DNA of 64,000 bases from Streptococcus uberis (GTDB lineage: Bacteria > Bacillota > Bacilli > Lactobacillales > Streptococcaceae): assembly GCF_000785785.1 (NCBI RefSeq), contig NZ_JRQN01000002.1, positions 62,001 through 126,000 of the forward strand, written 5' to 3'. Shown in pieces: positions 9,275 through 21,872 of the stretch. Position 1 is the first letter of the stretch, and each line of letters starts with the position of its first letter. The notes beneath the pieces were generated by a model that was not told the DNA's origin, did no database searches, and saw only the letters and a list, made by a program, of their open reading frames with translations. A program made the position numbers and the translations under genes.

Positions 9275-11609
9275 ATGGATATAAAAATTTTAGAACAGTT
9301 AGAATTTCAAAAGGTCAAGGAGCAATTCCAGGCCTATCTTCAAACTGAACAGGGGAAAGTGGAACTGCAACAATTAGTTCCTACGACTAACCCGGATAAA
9401 ATCAACGATTATTTTACAGAAATCTCCGAAATGGAAGGGATTTTTATTGAACATCATCATTTTGCTTTGGGATCGCTCCGTGATGTCAATGATAGCCTTC
9501 ACCGTCTAGAATTGGACGCTGACCTAAATATCTCAGAGCTTTTAGACATAAAAAAACTCTTACTTGTTTCTGCAGAAGCCAGTCGTTTTTACATGGATTT
9601 AGAAAATGTCGAATTGGTGGCCCTGAAAAGACTTTTTGAGAAAATAGAAATTTTCCCTCAGTTGCAGGGAAGCCTACAAGCCATCAATGATGGAGGCTTC
9701 TTAGAGAATTTTGCCAGTCCAGAATTGGAAGCAATCCGTCGTAAGATTTCAAATAGCGAACACCAAATTCGACAGTCGCTACAAGATGTGCTCAAGAAGC
9801 ATGCTGATTATCTGTCAGAATCCTTAATTGCTAGTCGAAACGGCCGTAGCGTGCTTCCTGTGAAAAATACCTTTAGGAATAAAATCGCAGGGGTTGTTCA
9901 TGATATTTCTGCTTCAGGGAATACAGTCTATATTGAACCGCGTGCTTGGTGCAATTGAATGAAGAAATAACGCAATTACATGCCGATGAACGTCATGAGA
10001 TGGCACGAATTCTCAAAGAATTATCAGCCATGGTTCGACCACATAGTCGGGCGCTCACTAATAATGCTTGGTTACTGGGACATCTCGACTTTGTCCGTGC
10101 TAAGTACCTCTTTATGAAGGAGAAGAAGGCGACTATTCCAACTGTTACTGCTGATAAATCAGTGCAATTGTTGAACGTCCGTCATCCACTCTTGCAAAAA
10201 GCTATTCCTAATGACTTGCATTTTTCTAAGGATCTAACCGTTATTGTTATAACGGGTCCTAATACGGGTGGTAAGACAATTATGTTAAAAACCCTCGGTT
10301 TAGCACAATTGATGGGGCAGTCAGGATTGCCTATTCTAGCTGACTTCGGATCCCAAATTGCTGTTTTTGATGGGATTTTTGCAGATATTGGCGATGAGCA
10401 ATCAATTGAGCAAAGCCTCTCAACATTTTCTAGTCATATGACCCACATTGTGTCAATTCTTGACCAAGCGTCAGCTGATAGCCTCGTTCTCTTTGATGAA
10501 CTTGGTGCTGGTACTGATCCTCAAGAGGGTGCTAGCTTAGCTATGGCGATTTTAGAAGAGCTTAGATTAAAAGAAATAAAAACAATGGCAACGACGCATT
10601 ATCCGGAGTTGAAGGCTTATGGTATTGACTCTGCTTTTGTGGAAAATGCAAGTATGGAGTTTGACAGTAATAGTCTGAAACCGACTTATCGGTTTATGCA
10701 GGGGGTCCCTGGTCGTTCAAATGCTTTTGAAATTGCTAGGCGTTTAGGTTTGGCAAGTCATATTGTGATGGATGCTCAGCACTTTACGGATACGGATTCT
10801 GATGTGAATCGGATTATTGAAGAACTGGAAAGACAGACCTTAGAGAGTCGTAAGAGACTGGATCATATCAAGGAAGTTGAGCAAGAAAACCTCAAATTTA
10901 ATCGGGCAGTTAAAAAGCTTTATAATGAATTTTCTCATGAACGTGATAAGGAAATGGAGAAGGTTATCAAAGAGGCGCAAGAAATTGTTAATCTGGCTTT
11001 GGCAGAGAGTGAGTCAATTCTTGCCAAACTGCATGATAAATCTCAATTAAAGCCACATGAAGTGATTGAGGCTAAGACACAGTTGAAAAAATTAGTACCT
11101 CAATCTGACTTGTCACAAAATAAGGTTTTGAAAAAAGCTAAAAAGCTACGTGCTGCAAGGGTTGGTGACGATATTATTGTGACAGCTTATGGGCAACGTG
11201 GAACCTTGACCAGCCAACTAAAAGATAAGAAGTGGGAAGCTCAAGTTGGATTAATCAAGATGACTTTGAAAGAGGATGAATTTACCTTGGTTAAGGCAGC
11301 TGAAGAAAGTCAGAAACCTAAGAAGCAACTGGTTAATGTCATTAAAAAAGCTGCAACTGGCTCTGGCCCCGTGCCCGTCTTGATTTACGAGGCAAGCGGT
11401 ATGAGGAAGCGATGCAAGAGTTAGATGCTTTCATTGATCAAGCTTTGGTTAACAATATGAGCCAAGTTGATATTATTCATGGTATTGGGACGGGGGTTAT
11501 TCGTGAAGCGGTCACCAAGTATTTAAGACGCAATAAACATGTTAAGAGTTTTGCTTATGCCCCGCAAAATGCAGGTGGTTCAGGTTGCACCATTGCGACC
11601 TTGGGTTAA
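9275..11609 (+). pseudogene. mutS2: MutS2 (RqcU-type) ATPase/endonuclease, two frameshifts as read
   Basis: MutS paralogue with a C-terminal Smr nuclease domain; acts on recombination intermediates and, in Bacillus, on collided ribosomes. Three frames are needed. Residues 1-228 end at PRAW instead of the expected PRAVVQLNEE (one G lacking near 9946). The ATPase part has [19 protein letters not shown] and [12 protein letters not shown] second shift near 11373 (GTGCCCG where GTGGCCCG fits) puts [16 protein letters not shown] out of frame; the Smr part then ends with [14 protein letters not shown] and [11 protein letters not shown]. ATGs at 9266 and 9269 are alternatives; 9275 ([11 protein letters not shown]) is preferred because the -10 overlaps the earlier ones. 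No Shine-Dalgarno is seen. Confidence 0.88.
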
Positions 11610-13570: not shown

Positions 13571-14709
13571 CTACTTCAACAATTGTGCCATCATTTTTTT
13601 CTGTGGTGTGGCCATTGGGAGATTATCAAAATCTTCTAAGTGAAGCCATTGCAGTTCTAAATGATTGGGCAATTTATCATCACTGACGGAGCCTTCTAAG
13701 AGCTCGATGGACCACTTTTGATGACTGAAAGTGTGAGTAAGCTTTTTATGAACGGTCTCATGCCAGGTCGGCTGTAGTTGATAGTGTTCAGAAAAAGCAT
13801 CCTTCTGTGATAAGGTCTCAAGAATTTCCTGTGACTGACCAAAAAGATCCATTTGTTGACTCTGAAAATTAGTCTCAATAATTGGAAAAGTCCAAAAACC
13901 GCCAAGAAGAGGTCCAGCATTATTCTTTTCAATCAGGTATTTACCTTCCGCATTTCTAATCACAAAAGCCTGAATTTCCATGGGACGCGGCTTTTTCTTA
14001 GGTAACTTAATGGGATATTTGTCGTAAGTTCCATGGAGATAGGCTGCGCAGAAAAACTTAATTGGGGAGTCATCTGGTCTGGGATTTTTAGCAGATTCGA
14101 TATCAGTGCCCAGATCCATTAGTGCTTGGTTGAAATCTCCGGGGCGATCTGGATCAATTAGTTTTTCCATGATTGCCTGAAAAATTTTTCGATTCTTAGG
14201 ATTTCCAATATCATAATCAACCTCAAATAATCTAGCCATCACACGCATGACATTGCCGTCAACAGCAGGCTCAGGTAAATTAAAAGCAATACTTGAGATT
14301 GCACCAGCGGTATATGGGCCAATCCCTTTTAATTCTGATATGTCTTCAAAGCGTGATGGGAAAGTCCCATCAAAATCGGTCATGATTTGTTGCGCAGCCT
14401 TCTGCATATTTCTTACGCGTGAGTAGTAACCAAGCCCTTCCCAGGCTTTTAACAGTTTTTCTTCAGGGGCGTTAGCAATTTTTCAATAGTCGGAAACCAC
14501 TCAAGAAAACGCTGATAGTAAGGAATGACAGTTTGAACTTGAGTTTGCTGGAGCATAATCTCAGAAACCCAAATGAAATAAGGATTTGTTGTACGTCTCC
14601 AAGGGAGATCTCGTTTTTCTTGGTCGTACCAGTTTAGGAGAGTACGACGAAAGGAATCAATTTTTTCGGGATTCCACATGTCAATACCATAATCTTTTAA
14701 ATCTAACAT
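13571..14709 (-). pseudogene. mutY: A/G-specific adenine glycosylase MutY, one frameshift as read; cluster cysteines mostly absent
   Basis: Removes adenine opposite 8-oxoguanine. The first frame starts at ATG 14709 (MLDLKDYGI), carries SEIMLQQTQVQT with the catalytic Glu, and breaks after IEKL at about 14476. Adding one G (TTGGCTAAC for TTGCTAAC) restores LANAPEEKLLKAWEGLGYYSRVRNMQ. The helix-hairpin-helix ELKGIGPYTAGA and the catalytic Asp in AVDGNVMRV follow. Where most MutY proteins have four [4Fe-4S] cysteines, this one reads IESAKNPRPDDSPIKFFCAAY, with only one Cys. Cluster-less MutY proteins are known in some lactic acid bacteria. A NUDIX-like C-terminal domain ends at 13571. There is no Shine-Dalgarno before 14709; an extended -10 (TGCTACAAT) ends only 7 bases upstream. 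Confidence 0.88.
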
Positions 14710-14805
14710 GTCCATATTGTAGCAAATATTGACTAGTTGTGGAAAGGAAAAGATAGTTTTTTGTGATGCATAAAATGTAATTTTATAAAAAAGAGGAGTT
14801 TTATA

Positions 14806-14834
14806 TTGACAAAAGGAAACGCTTACATTATAAT
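14806..14834 (+). promoter_or_regulatory. Consensus sigma-A promoter with embedded cre-like site, start of leader locus
   Basis: TTGACA (14806-14811), exactly 17 bp, then TATAAT (14829-14834): one of the best promoters in the window. The spacer holds AGGAAACGCTTACA (14814-14827), matching 12 of 14 cre consensus positions, so CcpA repression in glucose is predicted. It drives a transcript containing no conventional gene before the terminator at 15504. Confidence 0.72.
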
Positions 14835-14886
14835 AAAAGTATAAAGAAGGATGACATAATGACACAGATTTATAGGAGGTTTTCTT

Positions 14887-14928
14887 ATGATGAAACTACA
14901 TGTCGCACGGTACAAAAACGGAGACTAA
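14887..14928 (+). CDS. Candidate 13-residue leader peptide, copy 1
   Basis: ATAGGAGGTTTTCTT places a perfect AGGAGG 7-8 bases before ATGATG. The frame reads MMKLHVARYKNGD and stops at TAA. The shared ARYKNGD with copy 2, encoded by identical DNA, argues the reading is not accidental. It may be a leader peptide, a small peptide gene, or the surviving 5' end of a lost gene. An overlapping 37-codon frame (14859-14972) is possible but not conserved in copy 2. Confidence 0.4.
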   Translation: MMKLHVARYKNGD

Positions 14929-15231
14929 GTAGCTCTAACTGCGGTAGGCAAACCCAATTTTACGTATGTTAACAAAGTGATCACGCTGTTAAACTTATTC
15001 TAAGCTCGAGAGATTTGGCCAAAGGAGCGCTCTATACAGTATAAGTTGTAGCTTTTATGTTTTAAGAAGTGTCAAACACTTTTTAGAATTAGCATATACA
15101 AGTAATGAGGTTTTTCTAGATAAGACTTTCAAAAATTGTATAGTTTGTTATTGTCACTCAGGGAAAACGTTAAAAATTATTATTGTTATTGTCGCACAGG
15201 GAAATGAGTTTTTCTTTATTAGGAGGATCTT

Positions 15232-15285
15232 ATGAATCTTGCAAGATACAAAAACGGAGACACAGTTGGCTATTGCAAAAAATAG
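15232..15285 (+). CDS. Candidate 17-residue leader peptide, copy 2, hairpin over its stop codon
   Basis: TTAGGAGGATCTT precedes ATG. The frame reads MNLARYKNGDTVGYCKK and stops at TAG. The stop lies inside a hairpin, GGCTATT-GCAAAA-AATAGCC (15268-15287), which could couple translation of the peptide to RNA structure. MNLARYKNGDTVGY vaguely recalls the N-terminus of fumarylacetoacetate-hydrolase-type proteins, but no such gene follows. Function unknown. Confidence 0.4.
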   Translation: MNLARYKNGDTVGYCKK

Positions 15286-15503
15286 CCAAAGAAGTGAAAC
15301 CAATGTAAAATTTACAACATCATCATTATAGATTATGTGAAAACTAAATAGTATATATTTTAAAGCATTTCATAGAAAGAGAGGAGAATAAACCCTATCA
15401 GAAAAATAATAAGATTTATTTCCTTTTATATAGGAAAGTTTGCAGATAACTCCTTATGAAATGAATGAGAAAGGAATATATTCTATAAGAAAGAATTAAA
15501 TGA

Positions 15504-15545
15504 AAAAGGCATCCAAAAGTGTGCATTGGGTGTCTTTATTTTTTT
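15504..15545 (+). terminator. Terminator closing the leader locus
   Basis: AAAGGCATCCAA pairs with TTGGGTGTCTTT (two G-U pairs) and is followed by TATTTTTTT. Confidence 0.75.
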
Positions 15546-19041: not shown

Positions 19042-21872
19042 ATGCAAGATAAATTAATTATTCATGGAGCTAGGGCTCACAATTTAAAAAATATAGATGT
19101 CGAGATTCCTCGGGATAAGCTGGTTGTTGTGACGGGGTTATCTGGTTCTGGGAAGTCTAGTTTGCTTTTGATACCATCTATGCTGAGGGACAACGCCGTT
19201 ATGTGGAGAGTCTTTCGGCTTATGCACGCCAATTTTTAGGTAACATGGAGAAACCTGATGTTGACTCAATTGATGGCTTAAGCCCAGCTATTTCCATTGA
19301 CCAAAAAACAACCAGTAAAAATCCACGCTCAACCGTGGGGACTGTGACGGAAATCAATGACTATTTGCGCCTACTTTATGCGCGTGTTGGCACGCCATAC
19401 TGTATCAATGGGCATGGAGCTATTACGGCTTCATCTGTTGAACAGATTGTTGAGCAGGTTTTAGAATTGCCAGAACGGACAAGAATGCAGATTTTGTCAC
19501 CAATTGTACGTCGTAAGAAGGGGCAACATAAGTCGATTTTTGAAAAAATTCAAAAAGATGGTTATGTGCGTGTTCGGGTTGATGGGGATATCTATGATAT
19601 TTCAGAAGTTCCGGAATTATCTAAGAGTAAAATGCATGATATCGAAGTGGTTATTGACCGTTTGGTCAATAAAGATGGCATCAGAAGTCGTCTTTTTGAC
19701 TCAGTAGAAGCAGCCCTTCGTTTAGGGGATGGCTATCTGGTAATTGATACTATGGATGGCAATGAAATGCTCTTTTCAGAACATTACTCTTGTCCTGTCT
19801 GTGGTTTTACTGTTCCAGAATTGGAACCTCGTCTCTTTTCATTTAATGCACCGTTTGGTTCATGTCCGACCTGTGATGGTTTGGGAATTAAGTTGGAAGT
19901 CGATTTAGATCTCGTTATTCCTGATCCTAGTTTGACGCTAGCGCAAGGAGTCTTAGCACCTTGGAATCCCATTTCTTCCAATTACTATCCAACCATGCTT
20001 GAACAAGCCATGAAAGCTTTTGGGATTAGCATGGATACGCCTTATCAAGAGCTTTCAGATGAGGAAAAAGAGATTATCCTTTATGGTTCAGGTGATAAGG
20101 AATTCCATTTCCACTATGTCAATGATTTTGGTGGTGAACGTAATATTGATATTGCTTTTGAAGGTGTTATTACCAATATCAACCGTCGCTATCATGAAAC
20201 TAATAGTGAGTATACACGTAATGTCATGCGTGCTTATATGAATGCTCTTAAATGCACAACCTGTCACGGTTACCGTCTCAATGACCAAGCTCTTTGCGTG
20301 CATGTCGGCGGTGAAGACGGTTTAAATATTGGGAAATTGTCAGAATTATCAATTGCTGATCATCTTGAGTATATTGAACAATTACAATTGACGGAAAATG
20401 AGTCAACCATTGCTAAGCCAATTGTCAAAGAAATTCATGATCGTCTGACCTTCTTAAATAATGTTGGTCTTAATTATCTGACCCTTTCTCGTGCTTCGGG
20501 AACCCTGTCTGGTGGGGAGAGTCAGCGGATTCGACTAGCAACGCAAATCGGTTCTAACCTATCGGGAGTGCTCTACATTCTGGATGAGCCATCGATTGGT
20601 CTCCACCAAAGAGACAACGATCGCCTCATTGATAGCTTAAAGAAAATGCGTGATTTGGGGAATACCTTGATTGTTGTTGAACACGATGAAGATACCATGA
20701 TGCAGGCTGATTGGTTGATCGACGTCGGTCCAGGGGCCGGTGAGTTCGGTGGTCAAATCATTGCTTCAGGTACGCCAAAACAAGTAGCTCGCAATCGAAA
20801 ATCGATTACAGGTCAGTATTTGTCTGGTAAGAAATCAATTCCTGTACCTTTAGAACGTCGTAAGGGCAATGGTCGTTTTATTGAAATAAAGGGGGCCAGT
20901 GAAAATAACTTGCAAAACCTTGATGTTCGATTCCCTTTAGGCAAATTTATTGCTGTGACCGGTGTCTCCGGATCAGGAAAATCTACGCTAATTAATTCCA
21001 TTCTGAAAAAGGCGCTGGCGCAAAAACTCAATCGTAATTCTGAGAAGCCGGGTAAGCACAAATCCATTGAAGGAACGGAACATATTGAACGCTTGATTGA
21101 TATTGATCAAAGTCCAATTGGTCGGACGCCACGTTCAAATCCGGCCACTTATACGGGGGTCTTTGATGATATCCGTGATCTGTTTGCACAGACCAATGAA
21201 GCTAAGATCCGTGGCTACAAGAAGGGGCGCTTTTCCTTCAATGTCAAAGGCGGACGTTGTGAAGCCTGTTCTGGTGATGGGATTATCAAGATTGAAATGC
21301 ATTTCCTACCTGATGTCTATGTTCCGTGTGAAGTTTGCCATGGCCGACGTTATAATTCAGAGACTTTAGAAGTTCATTATAAAGAGAAAAATATTGCTCA
21401 AATCCTAGATATGACTGTTGATGATGCTCTGCCATTCTTCTCAGCTATTCCGAAGATTGCTCGTAAGATTCAAACGATTAAGGATGTTGGTCTAGGTTAT
21501 GTTACTCTTGGTCAACCAGCGACAACCCTTTCTGGTGGTGAAGCGCAACGGATGAAGTTGGCTTCAGAGTTACACAAACGGTCAACAGGTAAGAGTCTTT
21601 ATATCTTAGATGAGCCAACAACTGGTCTTCACACTGACGACATTGCACGTCTCTTGACTGTTTTAGAACGCTTTGTTGATGAAGGCAATACTGTTCTTGT
21701 GATTGAACATAATCTTGATGTCATTAAATCAGCGGACCATATTATTGACCTTGGTCCGGAAGGTGGTGTTGGCGGTGGACAGATTATTGCGACTGGTACG
21801 CCAGAAGATATTGCCAAAGTTAAAGAGAGCTATACAGGTTATTATTTGAAAGAAAAATTGGATTTGAAGTAA
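19042..21872 (+). pseudogene. uvrA: Excinuclease ABC subunit A, one frameshift as read
   Basis: Damage-sensing ATPase of nucleotide excision repair. It begins [18 protein letters not shown] with Walker [10 protein letters not shown], then breaks at about 19164: TTGCTTTTG stands where TTGGCTTTTGAT would give [22 protein letters not shown]. After that all is in order. The zinc modules CPVCG/CPTCDG and [14 protein letters not shown], two ABC signatures [12 protein letters not shown] and [12 protein letters not shown], and a second Walker [10 protein letters not shown] are present. Total about 943 codons, normal for UvrA. One restored G makes it whole, so loss in vivo is doubtful. A hairpin separates its Shine-Dalgarno from the ATG. 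Confidence 0.93.

Follow-up and report, generated by a model that had tools for sequence, protein, structure and literature searches.

The window, the whole stretch of 64,000 nucleotides of Streptococcus uberis DNA that was analysed, holds an array of two very short open reading frames (micro-ORFs), flanked on the left by a divergent mutY-like gene and on the right by rpsF-, ssb- and rpsR-like genes (named from their translations). The features of the array are given below.

14806..14834, plus strand: sigma-70 type promoter TTGACA-17-TATAAT, the sole convincing one of the array (12 of 12 consensus positions; place and sequence kept in relatives)
14814..14827, plus strand: cre-like operator AGGAAACGCTTACA, between the -35 and -10 hexamers
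14874..14879, plus strand: Shine-Dalgarno (SD) sequence AGGAGG of micro-ORF 1, invariant in a seven-way alignment
14887..14928, plus strand: micro-ORF 1, peptide MMKLHVARYKNGD up to its stop codon (sequence and frames)
14943..14963, plus strand: conserved non-coding motif GGTAGGC...TTTTAC, 3' of micro-ORF 1 (alignment of seven arrays; present in some form in 8 of 348 loci)
15013..15047, plus strand: strongly conserved non-coding block ATTTGGCCAAAGGAGCGCTCTATACAGTATAAGTT (12 of 348 loci, which are 9 distinct arrays, match its exact pattern)
15050..15100, plus strand: site of the middle RYKNGD micro-ORF of three-module relatives, absent from the window (seven-way alignment, columns 270-345)
15147..15162, plus strand: direct repeat, copy 1, GTTATTGTCACTCAGG, which holds the second -35 proposed earlier (repeat analysis)
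15185..15200, plus strand: direct repeat, copy 2, GTTATTGTCGCACAGG (repeat analysis)
15221..15226, plus strand: Shine-Dalgarno sequence AGGAGG of micro-ORF 2
15232..15285, plus strand: micro-ORF 2, peptide MNLARYKNGDTVGYCKK up to its stop codon (sequence and frames, alignment of seven arrays)
15266..15289, plus strand: 9-bp hairpin that starts just past the RYKNGD codons and spans the stop of micro-ORF 2 (folding)
15303..15308, plus strand: ATG-TAA start-stop pair, after GAAGTGAAACCA
15450..15459, plus strand: conserved CTCCTTATGA close to the end of the array (loci read, alignment of seven arrays)
15505..15545, plus strand: intrinsic terminator of the array (12-bp stem followed by a T-run, z -3.5)

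It can be seen that, first, the pair of micro-ORFs described in the initial annotation is present, each preceded by AGGAGG and each encoding RYKNGD, with TACAAAAACGGAGAC in common. Secondly, the ORF listing and the frames contain no conventional gene between the micro-ORFs and the terminator, as had been stated. The terminator hairpin occupies 15505-15537 with the T-run next to it; a simple terminator scan gave none because its loop limit was 8 and the actual loop is 9. The hairpin across the second stop codon is likewise there, with a stem of 9 bp rather than the 7 bp reported before (-11.5 kcal/mol, z -4.3), and an element related to it occurs in other streptococcal arrays. A degenerate pattern for the core matched twice in the 64-kb window and in 0 of 100 shuffles. 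No further RY[KR]NGD was found in the window's genome, where the third match of the pattern is SYKNGD.

The promoter of full consensus lies 53 nt ahead of the first ATG, and micro-ORF 2 is internal to the array. A CG-centred cre-like operator was found by regular expression at this place in at least 38 of 49 streptococcal loci, a search that missed L005 and L133, whose promoters look alike on reading or alignment. The array would thus be placed under CcpA and repressed on good carbon sources. The earlier proposal of a carbon-regulated small-peptide or leader system therefore came close, with the operator recurrent and the core conserved at the amino-acid level; the part ascribed to CcpA is read from the site. 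Two duplicated cre-promoter modules had also been proposed. Promoter 1 is perfect and the duplication of SD and micro-ORF stands, while the hexamers of copy 2 reach only 9 of 12 consensus matches and weak promoter-like sites are common (12 in the kilobase, against 4.9 expected). In addition, the TTGTCA of copy 2 falls within a direct repeat, GTTATTGTCRCWCAGG (15147-15162 and 15185-15200), which is kept in relatives in the alignment of seven, whereas the cre-like letters at copy 2 are not. A second promoter was not accepted because of the 9/12 hexamers and the position within the repeat; its "cre-promoter" is probably a chance occurrence, and what was duplicated is therefore the SD with its micro-ORF, not a regulated promoter.

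A DNA search gave matches in 30 of 147 genomes of the genus. The micro-ORF, mostly repeated, and not a longer gene, is carried by 29 of these 30 loci (examples of the repeated peptides are MLKMNLSRYKNGD and MNVARYKNGDTLASCIK); L030, the locus with the weakest best match, has no RYKNGD-like motif. A pattern search matched in 104 of 284 genus genomes, which is not a count of arrays because the pattern admits SYKNGD and matches inside ordinary genes. Altogether 82 loci were considered, 60 from the genome searches and 22 among the matches listed from a scan of a species-genome collection; 73 of them have at least one micro-ORF with SD and ATG, and removal of near-identical ones left 49 distinct loci with 1-8 micro-ORFs each and at least two copies in 44. 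Among 16 named streptococcal loci that were read, the array lies beside a mutY-like gene and/or upstream of rpsF in 14, with both neighbours in 6. S. ovuberis, S. merionis and S. moroccensis have a single copy elsewhere in the genome. An Azaaromatic (yjdF) riboswitch match of 70.8 bits lies in the same genome stretch as one of the arrays (L016:2859-2956).

The conservation of the peptide was analyzed at the level of single residues. Among 174 SD-ATG micro-ORFs from the 49 loci with no more than two mismatches from RYKNGD, the residues were kept as follows: D in 174, R in 173, N in 173, G in 172, Y in 171 and K in 167. In a set of 159 streptococcal modules, 158 encode RYKNGD and one RYKDGD, with 73 different nucleotide cores and five arginine codons in common use; the zero entropy at non-wobble positions in this set arises by construction, since the regular expression demanded the motif, and the counts from the 174 ORFs and of synonymous changes are less biased. 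Seven residues precede R in 107 of the 159 modules and four in 28; N stands at -3 in 106, and A, G or S at -1 in 145. The stop codon follows D directly in 53 of the 159 and a sense codon follows in the others. Five loci found through promoter similarity alone (L015, L016, L020, L024 and L027) all carry the core, with 17 synonymous and 0 nonsynonymous codon differences from the first core of the window (12 and 0 without L024, whose first module is decayed and for which the next one was compared). These results show that the RYKNGD core is conserved at the amino-acid level in Streptococcus and that the tail is free. The micro-ORF family is real and under selection, and both micro-ORFs of the window are genuine members of this apparently undescribed family of very short genes, whose RYKNGD core is strongly conserved.

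The species-genome collection was scanned with a gapped SD-ATG-core pattern that required GGAGG and at most 8 residues before R. At least 118 stretches matched, many of them within genes or in other phyla and chance-looking. Clear short ones were found in Anaerococcus, Peptoniphilus, Parvimonas, Peptostreptococcus, Granulicatella, Ezakiella, Anaerotignum, Erysipelotrichaceae and Lachnospiraceae; MNYKNPQRYKNGD is an example of the Peptoniphilaceae type. At least 65 distinct RYKNGD micro-ORFs lie outside Streptococcus, a number that includes the viral contig L192 and metagenome bins of uncertain or other phyla (L068, L090), which may be chance. Outside Streptococcus the motif was itself the search key, so that diverged forms are missed and its invariance is partly by construction. 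The residues ahead of it formed no part of the search pattern: N stands at -3 in 46 of the 65, P at -2 in 29 and Q at -1 in 31, so that N at -3 is common to streptococci and the other groups. The tail after the core has 0-26 residues. When 20 such loci were followed back to their whole genomes, each of which by selection had at least one match, the pattern occurred 54 times (RYKNGD in 53 cases, SYKNGD in one) and its reverse twice; the richest genome had 10 exact RYKNGD matches. In a random sample of the phylum, searched with AGR codons only, 8 of 299 genomes matched; besides the window only L181 is a leader, and the other seven loci lie within longer frames. A phage origin was rejected, one such micro-ORF (L192) being present among 23 viral stretches. 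In an Erysipelotrichaceae locus (L087), three micro-ORFs MCT[SC][MI]ARYKNGDG at 2924, 6225 and 7684 lie within 5 kb and have near-identical upstream regions, and may be copies of one promoter-leader cassette.

A downstream ORF could be called for 49 of the 65 (among the matches listed); 13 have no callable ORF and 3 stand at the end of the locus. A basic and hydrophobic N-terminus, resembling a signal peptide or a membrane anchor, is present in 47 of these 49 downstream ORFs and in 69 of 225 further genes from those loci, as judged by a simple hydropathy rule that membrane proteins pass too (Fisher p 2e-18, which overstates independence since several loci come from the same genome). A stricter filter gave 24 of 27 against 28 of 188. 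The distance from the stop of the micro-ORF to the downstream gene has a median of 53 nt and ranges from -4 to 222. The families recognised downstream are DUF6973 (L061), Amidase_6 (L099), C39-like peptidase (L240) and Lactococcin_972 (L147), with none for most of the others; no common domain was found, and an all-against-all blastp of 18 downstream proteins gave only weak local matches. An NlpC/P60 protein (L088) was discarded as a downstream gene, the RYKNGD letters overlapping its start in another frame. Elsewhere in the Firmicutes the micro-ORFs sit just before genes whose products begin like exported or membrane proteins; in streptococci they form mostly stand-alone tandem arrays with a cre-like operator.

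Among single streptococcal leaders, one stands before a secreted protein and an ABC transporter, one before ABC-transporter genes, and one before a cluster that includes maturase components of the SagD family (283 bits, cut-off 219) and the SagC family (49 bits, below the cut-off of 188). Downstream of the micro-ORF MNYCNNFRYKNGDMLNSR in L268 (genome G182, 400-1100) lie two putative RiPP precursors, short and Cys-rich, together with maturase genes of the SagC/SagD families. In L059/L263 (genome G052), the micro-ORF MRYSLPSRYKNGDI lies beside an HTH regulator that reads by eye like the PlcR type; further neighbours are an ABC transporter, a secreted protein of 90 aa and a short peptide that looks exported.

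Lactococcin 972 clusters share the leader in part. One leader precedes a PF09683 (lactococcin-972 bacteriocin) protein in Anaerococcus (L147), and four streptococcal loci have an RYRNGD leader ahead of a PF09683 match, at 95-97 nt from core to gene in L326, L328 and L329 and with the match starting 138 nt after the core in L324. Most such loci differ in having no clean leader, and the link was rejected as a general rule: a leader was found in 0 of the 30 top loci, and 40 further loci comprised 4 with a clean RYRNGD leader, 11 with RYKNGD letters lacking an in-frame start and 25 with nothing. The window's genome has 0 matches to PF09683. The 11 loci with letters (L307-L311, L313, L315-L318 and L343) keep AGATATAAGAATGGAGAT (RYKNGD) upstream of the lactococcin-972 gene without an in-frame start codon, 244-245 nt from core to gene in 10 of the 11; this may be a broken leader, an unusually started leader or chance.

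The initial annotation knew of no described element that matched, and the searches of literature, Pfam, NCBIfam and Rfam likewise found none. RYKNGD was not mentioned in the full-text literature searched, subscription papers lying mostly outside that search; YKNGD was found only in papers unrelated by title and abstract, and the literature found on streptococcal small ORFs, leader peptides and bacteriocins contained no description of an RYKNGD family. The accessible text of a uORF survey (PMC8632094), an arrest-peptide survey (PMC10987492), a paper on leaderless communication peptides (PMC10518010) and the uORF4u paper (PMC10219788) contains no such motif. Five of the longer leaders had no match in Pfam or NCBIfam. 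No Rfam covariance model reached gathering in the window, and in five loci scanned up to E 0.5 the only match touching an array was SurA (19 bits, gathering 100, E 0.24), on the minus strand opposite 15385-15460 of the window; two strong Rfam matches lie elsewhere. The micro-ORF family is thus apparently undescribed, of the leader-peptide kind, with a stand-alone array form in streptococci.

Three kinds of known peptides were compared with it. As given in the accessible text of the respective reports, KNAD is the chloramphenicol-induced arrest sequence of CmlA (PMC10192921), and ErmBL arrests at Asp10 (PMC8274638). On that basis these leaders resemble the RYKNGD micro-ORFs in being tiny ORFs with their own SD, a short nascent chain and key residues ending in Asp, while the second-to-last residue of the core is Gly and not the Ala of KNAD. 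They differ in having a resistance gene downstream and a drug-dependent arrest, whereas the RYKNGD micro-ORFs precede genes for exported proteins or none, their arrest is conjectural and a general SD switch is missing. This likeness may serve as a lead and not as a test. The Sec/YidC-related arrest peptides (SecM, MifM, ApdA/ApdP, uC_KYxIW) are also upstream ORFs tied to export in which a motif is kept and the rest varies; they carry an N-terminal localization signal and precede localization-machinery genes, whereas the RYKNGD peptides, mostly of 10-30 aa, have no localization signal and precede the exported cargo itself, and the array neighbours read by eye were mutY-like and rpsF-like. Leaderless communication peptides (LCPs; SIP and relatives) share very short ORFs, the lack of a signal sequence, a place near effector genes and occurrence in Firmicutes. 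According to the accessible part of PMC10518010 they are hydrophobic 8-9-mers of differing sequences beside ropB homologues; the R-Y-K-N-G-D core is hydrophilic and the same in distant groups, and no ropB homologue was seen by eye among the ORFs of 11-19.5 kb of the window.

The explanation that we favour, while holding it somewhat short of even odds, is that the micro-ORFs form a leader family and that their nascent chain has a conserved target, probably the ribosome, in a manner like that of CmlA and ErmBL. Each micro-ORF would give a short peptide, often with N at -3, then RYKNGD and a free tail, and the core would act while still inside or beside the ribosome, or else some other machine that is widely conserved. 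Ribosomes might pause or arrest on reaching the C-terminal Asp, mostly at codon 9-14, and arrest and its relief would set the translation or the mRNA lifetime of what follows. A core common to distant Firmicutes, an irrelevant tail and a last fixed residue at codon 9-14 are what is expected of a nascent chain that contacts the ribosome; the short ORF with its own SD, conserved in core amino acids and free in its codons, is shared with arrest leaders. Since the downstream proteins are mostly unrelated, a leader acting in cis seems preferable to a partner. The array of the window is a different matter: with no other RY[KR]NGD in the genome, cis control of an exported gene does not account for it there. 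In the streptococcal array the element is multiplied without a protein gene, so that under this explanation the arrested RNA or the peptide itself would be the product, with CcpA presumably repressing the array on good carbon sources. A more specific form of this idea, which we regard as a long shot, is that the arrays are ribosome-catching RNAs: on poor carbon sources, with CcpA off, the RNA would be coated with 2-8 arrest micro-ORFs and would yield no protein but halted ribosomes or a dosed amount of RYKNGD peptide, as the stand-alone multiplied form of a leader that controls the export of effector or competition proteins elsewhere.

The same lack of a cis target keeps a second explanation alive, a possible one to which we give about one chance in four: the released peptide would act in trans as a short cytosolic or exported signal or ligand, made in many copies from arrays and together with exported effectors elsewhere. 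Arrays multiply the peptide, leaderless signals are known in Firmicutes (PMC10518010, accessible part), and the streptococcus with the PlcR-like regulator combines the micro-ORF with a short exported-looking peptide, a secreted protein and a transporter. However, signal codes usually differ between species and here one core is shared by distant Firmicutes (a search by motif misses forms that have diverged); the tail is free, LCPs lack the strongly hydrophilic character of the core, and no constantly linked receptor gene was seen among neighbours read by eye. A signal would moreover be redundant in a genome with as many as 10 matches, which precede unrelated genes in the cases read.

It seems unlikely that a strong SD and a short ORF near the 5' end merely load ribosomes and protect the mRNA, the peptide being incidental. 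A strong SD does precede the micro-ORFs, though the selection required one (GGAGG in the collection scan), and the spacing to the next gene is free; the conservation at the amino-acid level with free wobble positions speaks against it.

Slightly less probable still is an attenuator like that of ermC: the SD of the next start codon would be masked by a hairpin, which a ribosome stalled on RYKNGD would open. Many streptococcal modules do have a hairpin from just past the core into (A)AGGRGTGA..CCAATG. But of 43 AGGRGTGA..CC elements found after streptococcal micro-ORFs, many of them behind the hairpin, 18 have ATGTAA, with the stop right after the start, 11 have another ATG and 14 have no ATG, so that a following ORF is often lacking. 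No compensatory pair changes were found in the hairpin among 32 of 40 distinct elements plus the window, aligned in two groups (A2 and A3) with 8 of the more divergent elements left out by eye, a weak test because the register of the hairpin shifts between sequences. Outside Streptococcus the switch was modelled for 42 of 43 leaders (one was left out, its SD lying within the footprint) with 60 mononucleotide shuffles each. Covering 14 nt after the core shifted SD accessibility by a mean of 0.018, and 8 of the 42 fell below p 0.1 where about 4 are expected, most clearly L061, L175, L252 and L254. SD sequestration was therefore rejected as the general mechanism there, a minority at most fitting it, and the spacing of -4 to 222 nt means that one geometry cannot serve all leaders. 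If arrest occurs under the nascent-chain explanation, its output would more likely be mRNA stability or coupling than release of an SD.

We consider it equally improbable that the streptococcal locus is a structured small RNA of which the micro-ORFs are only a part. Long non-coding blocks are conserved among the nearest arrays of the window, and the hairpin of copy 2 is stable. The best-conserved block (15013..15047), in which no compensatory pairs were found, is nevertheless confined by exact pattern to the 9 distinct arrays, and micro-ORFs persist in loci whose spacers have changed. Furthermore, the stretch 14900-15010 after micro-ORF 1 folds worse than 199 of 200 shuffles, and the Rfam scans described above gave no match in the window and, for the arrays in the five loci, none that passed the threshold. 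The earlier alternative of two decayed 5' ends of a duplicated ordinary gene, for which the lack of a gene in the window is the one argument, is very improbable and was rejected, since no ordinary protein continues from RYKNGD in the loci read, where the micro-ORF itself is repeated, and the core changes are synonymous.

One hexapeptide core in very short genes of streptococci and distant Firmicutes, before unrelated exported and sometimes bacteriocin-like proteins, suggests that exported effectors are under a level of control that has been overlooked. RYKNGD is, under the nascent-chain explanation, a very short and directly testable candidate arrest sequence. Regulons such as those suggested by up to 10 exact matches per genome may be invisible because ORFs of this kind fall below the usual limits of annotation.

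In the window, the mutS2-like (9946-11609), mutY-like (13571-14865) and uvrA-like (19042-21872) genes, named from their translations, are each split over two frames, which suggests indel errors of the draft assembly or real frameshifts.
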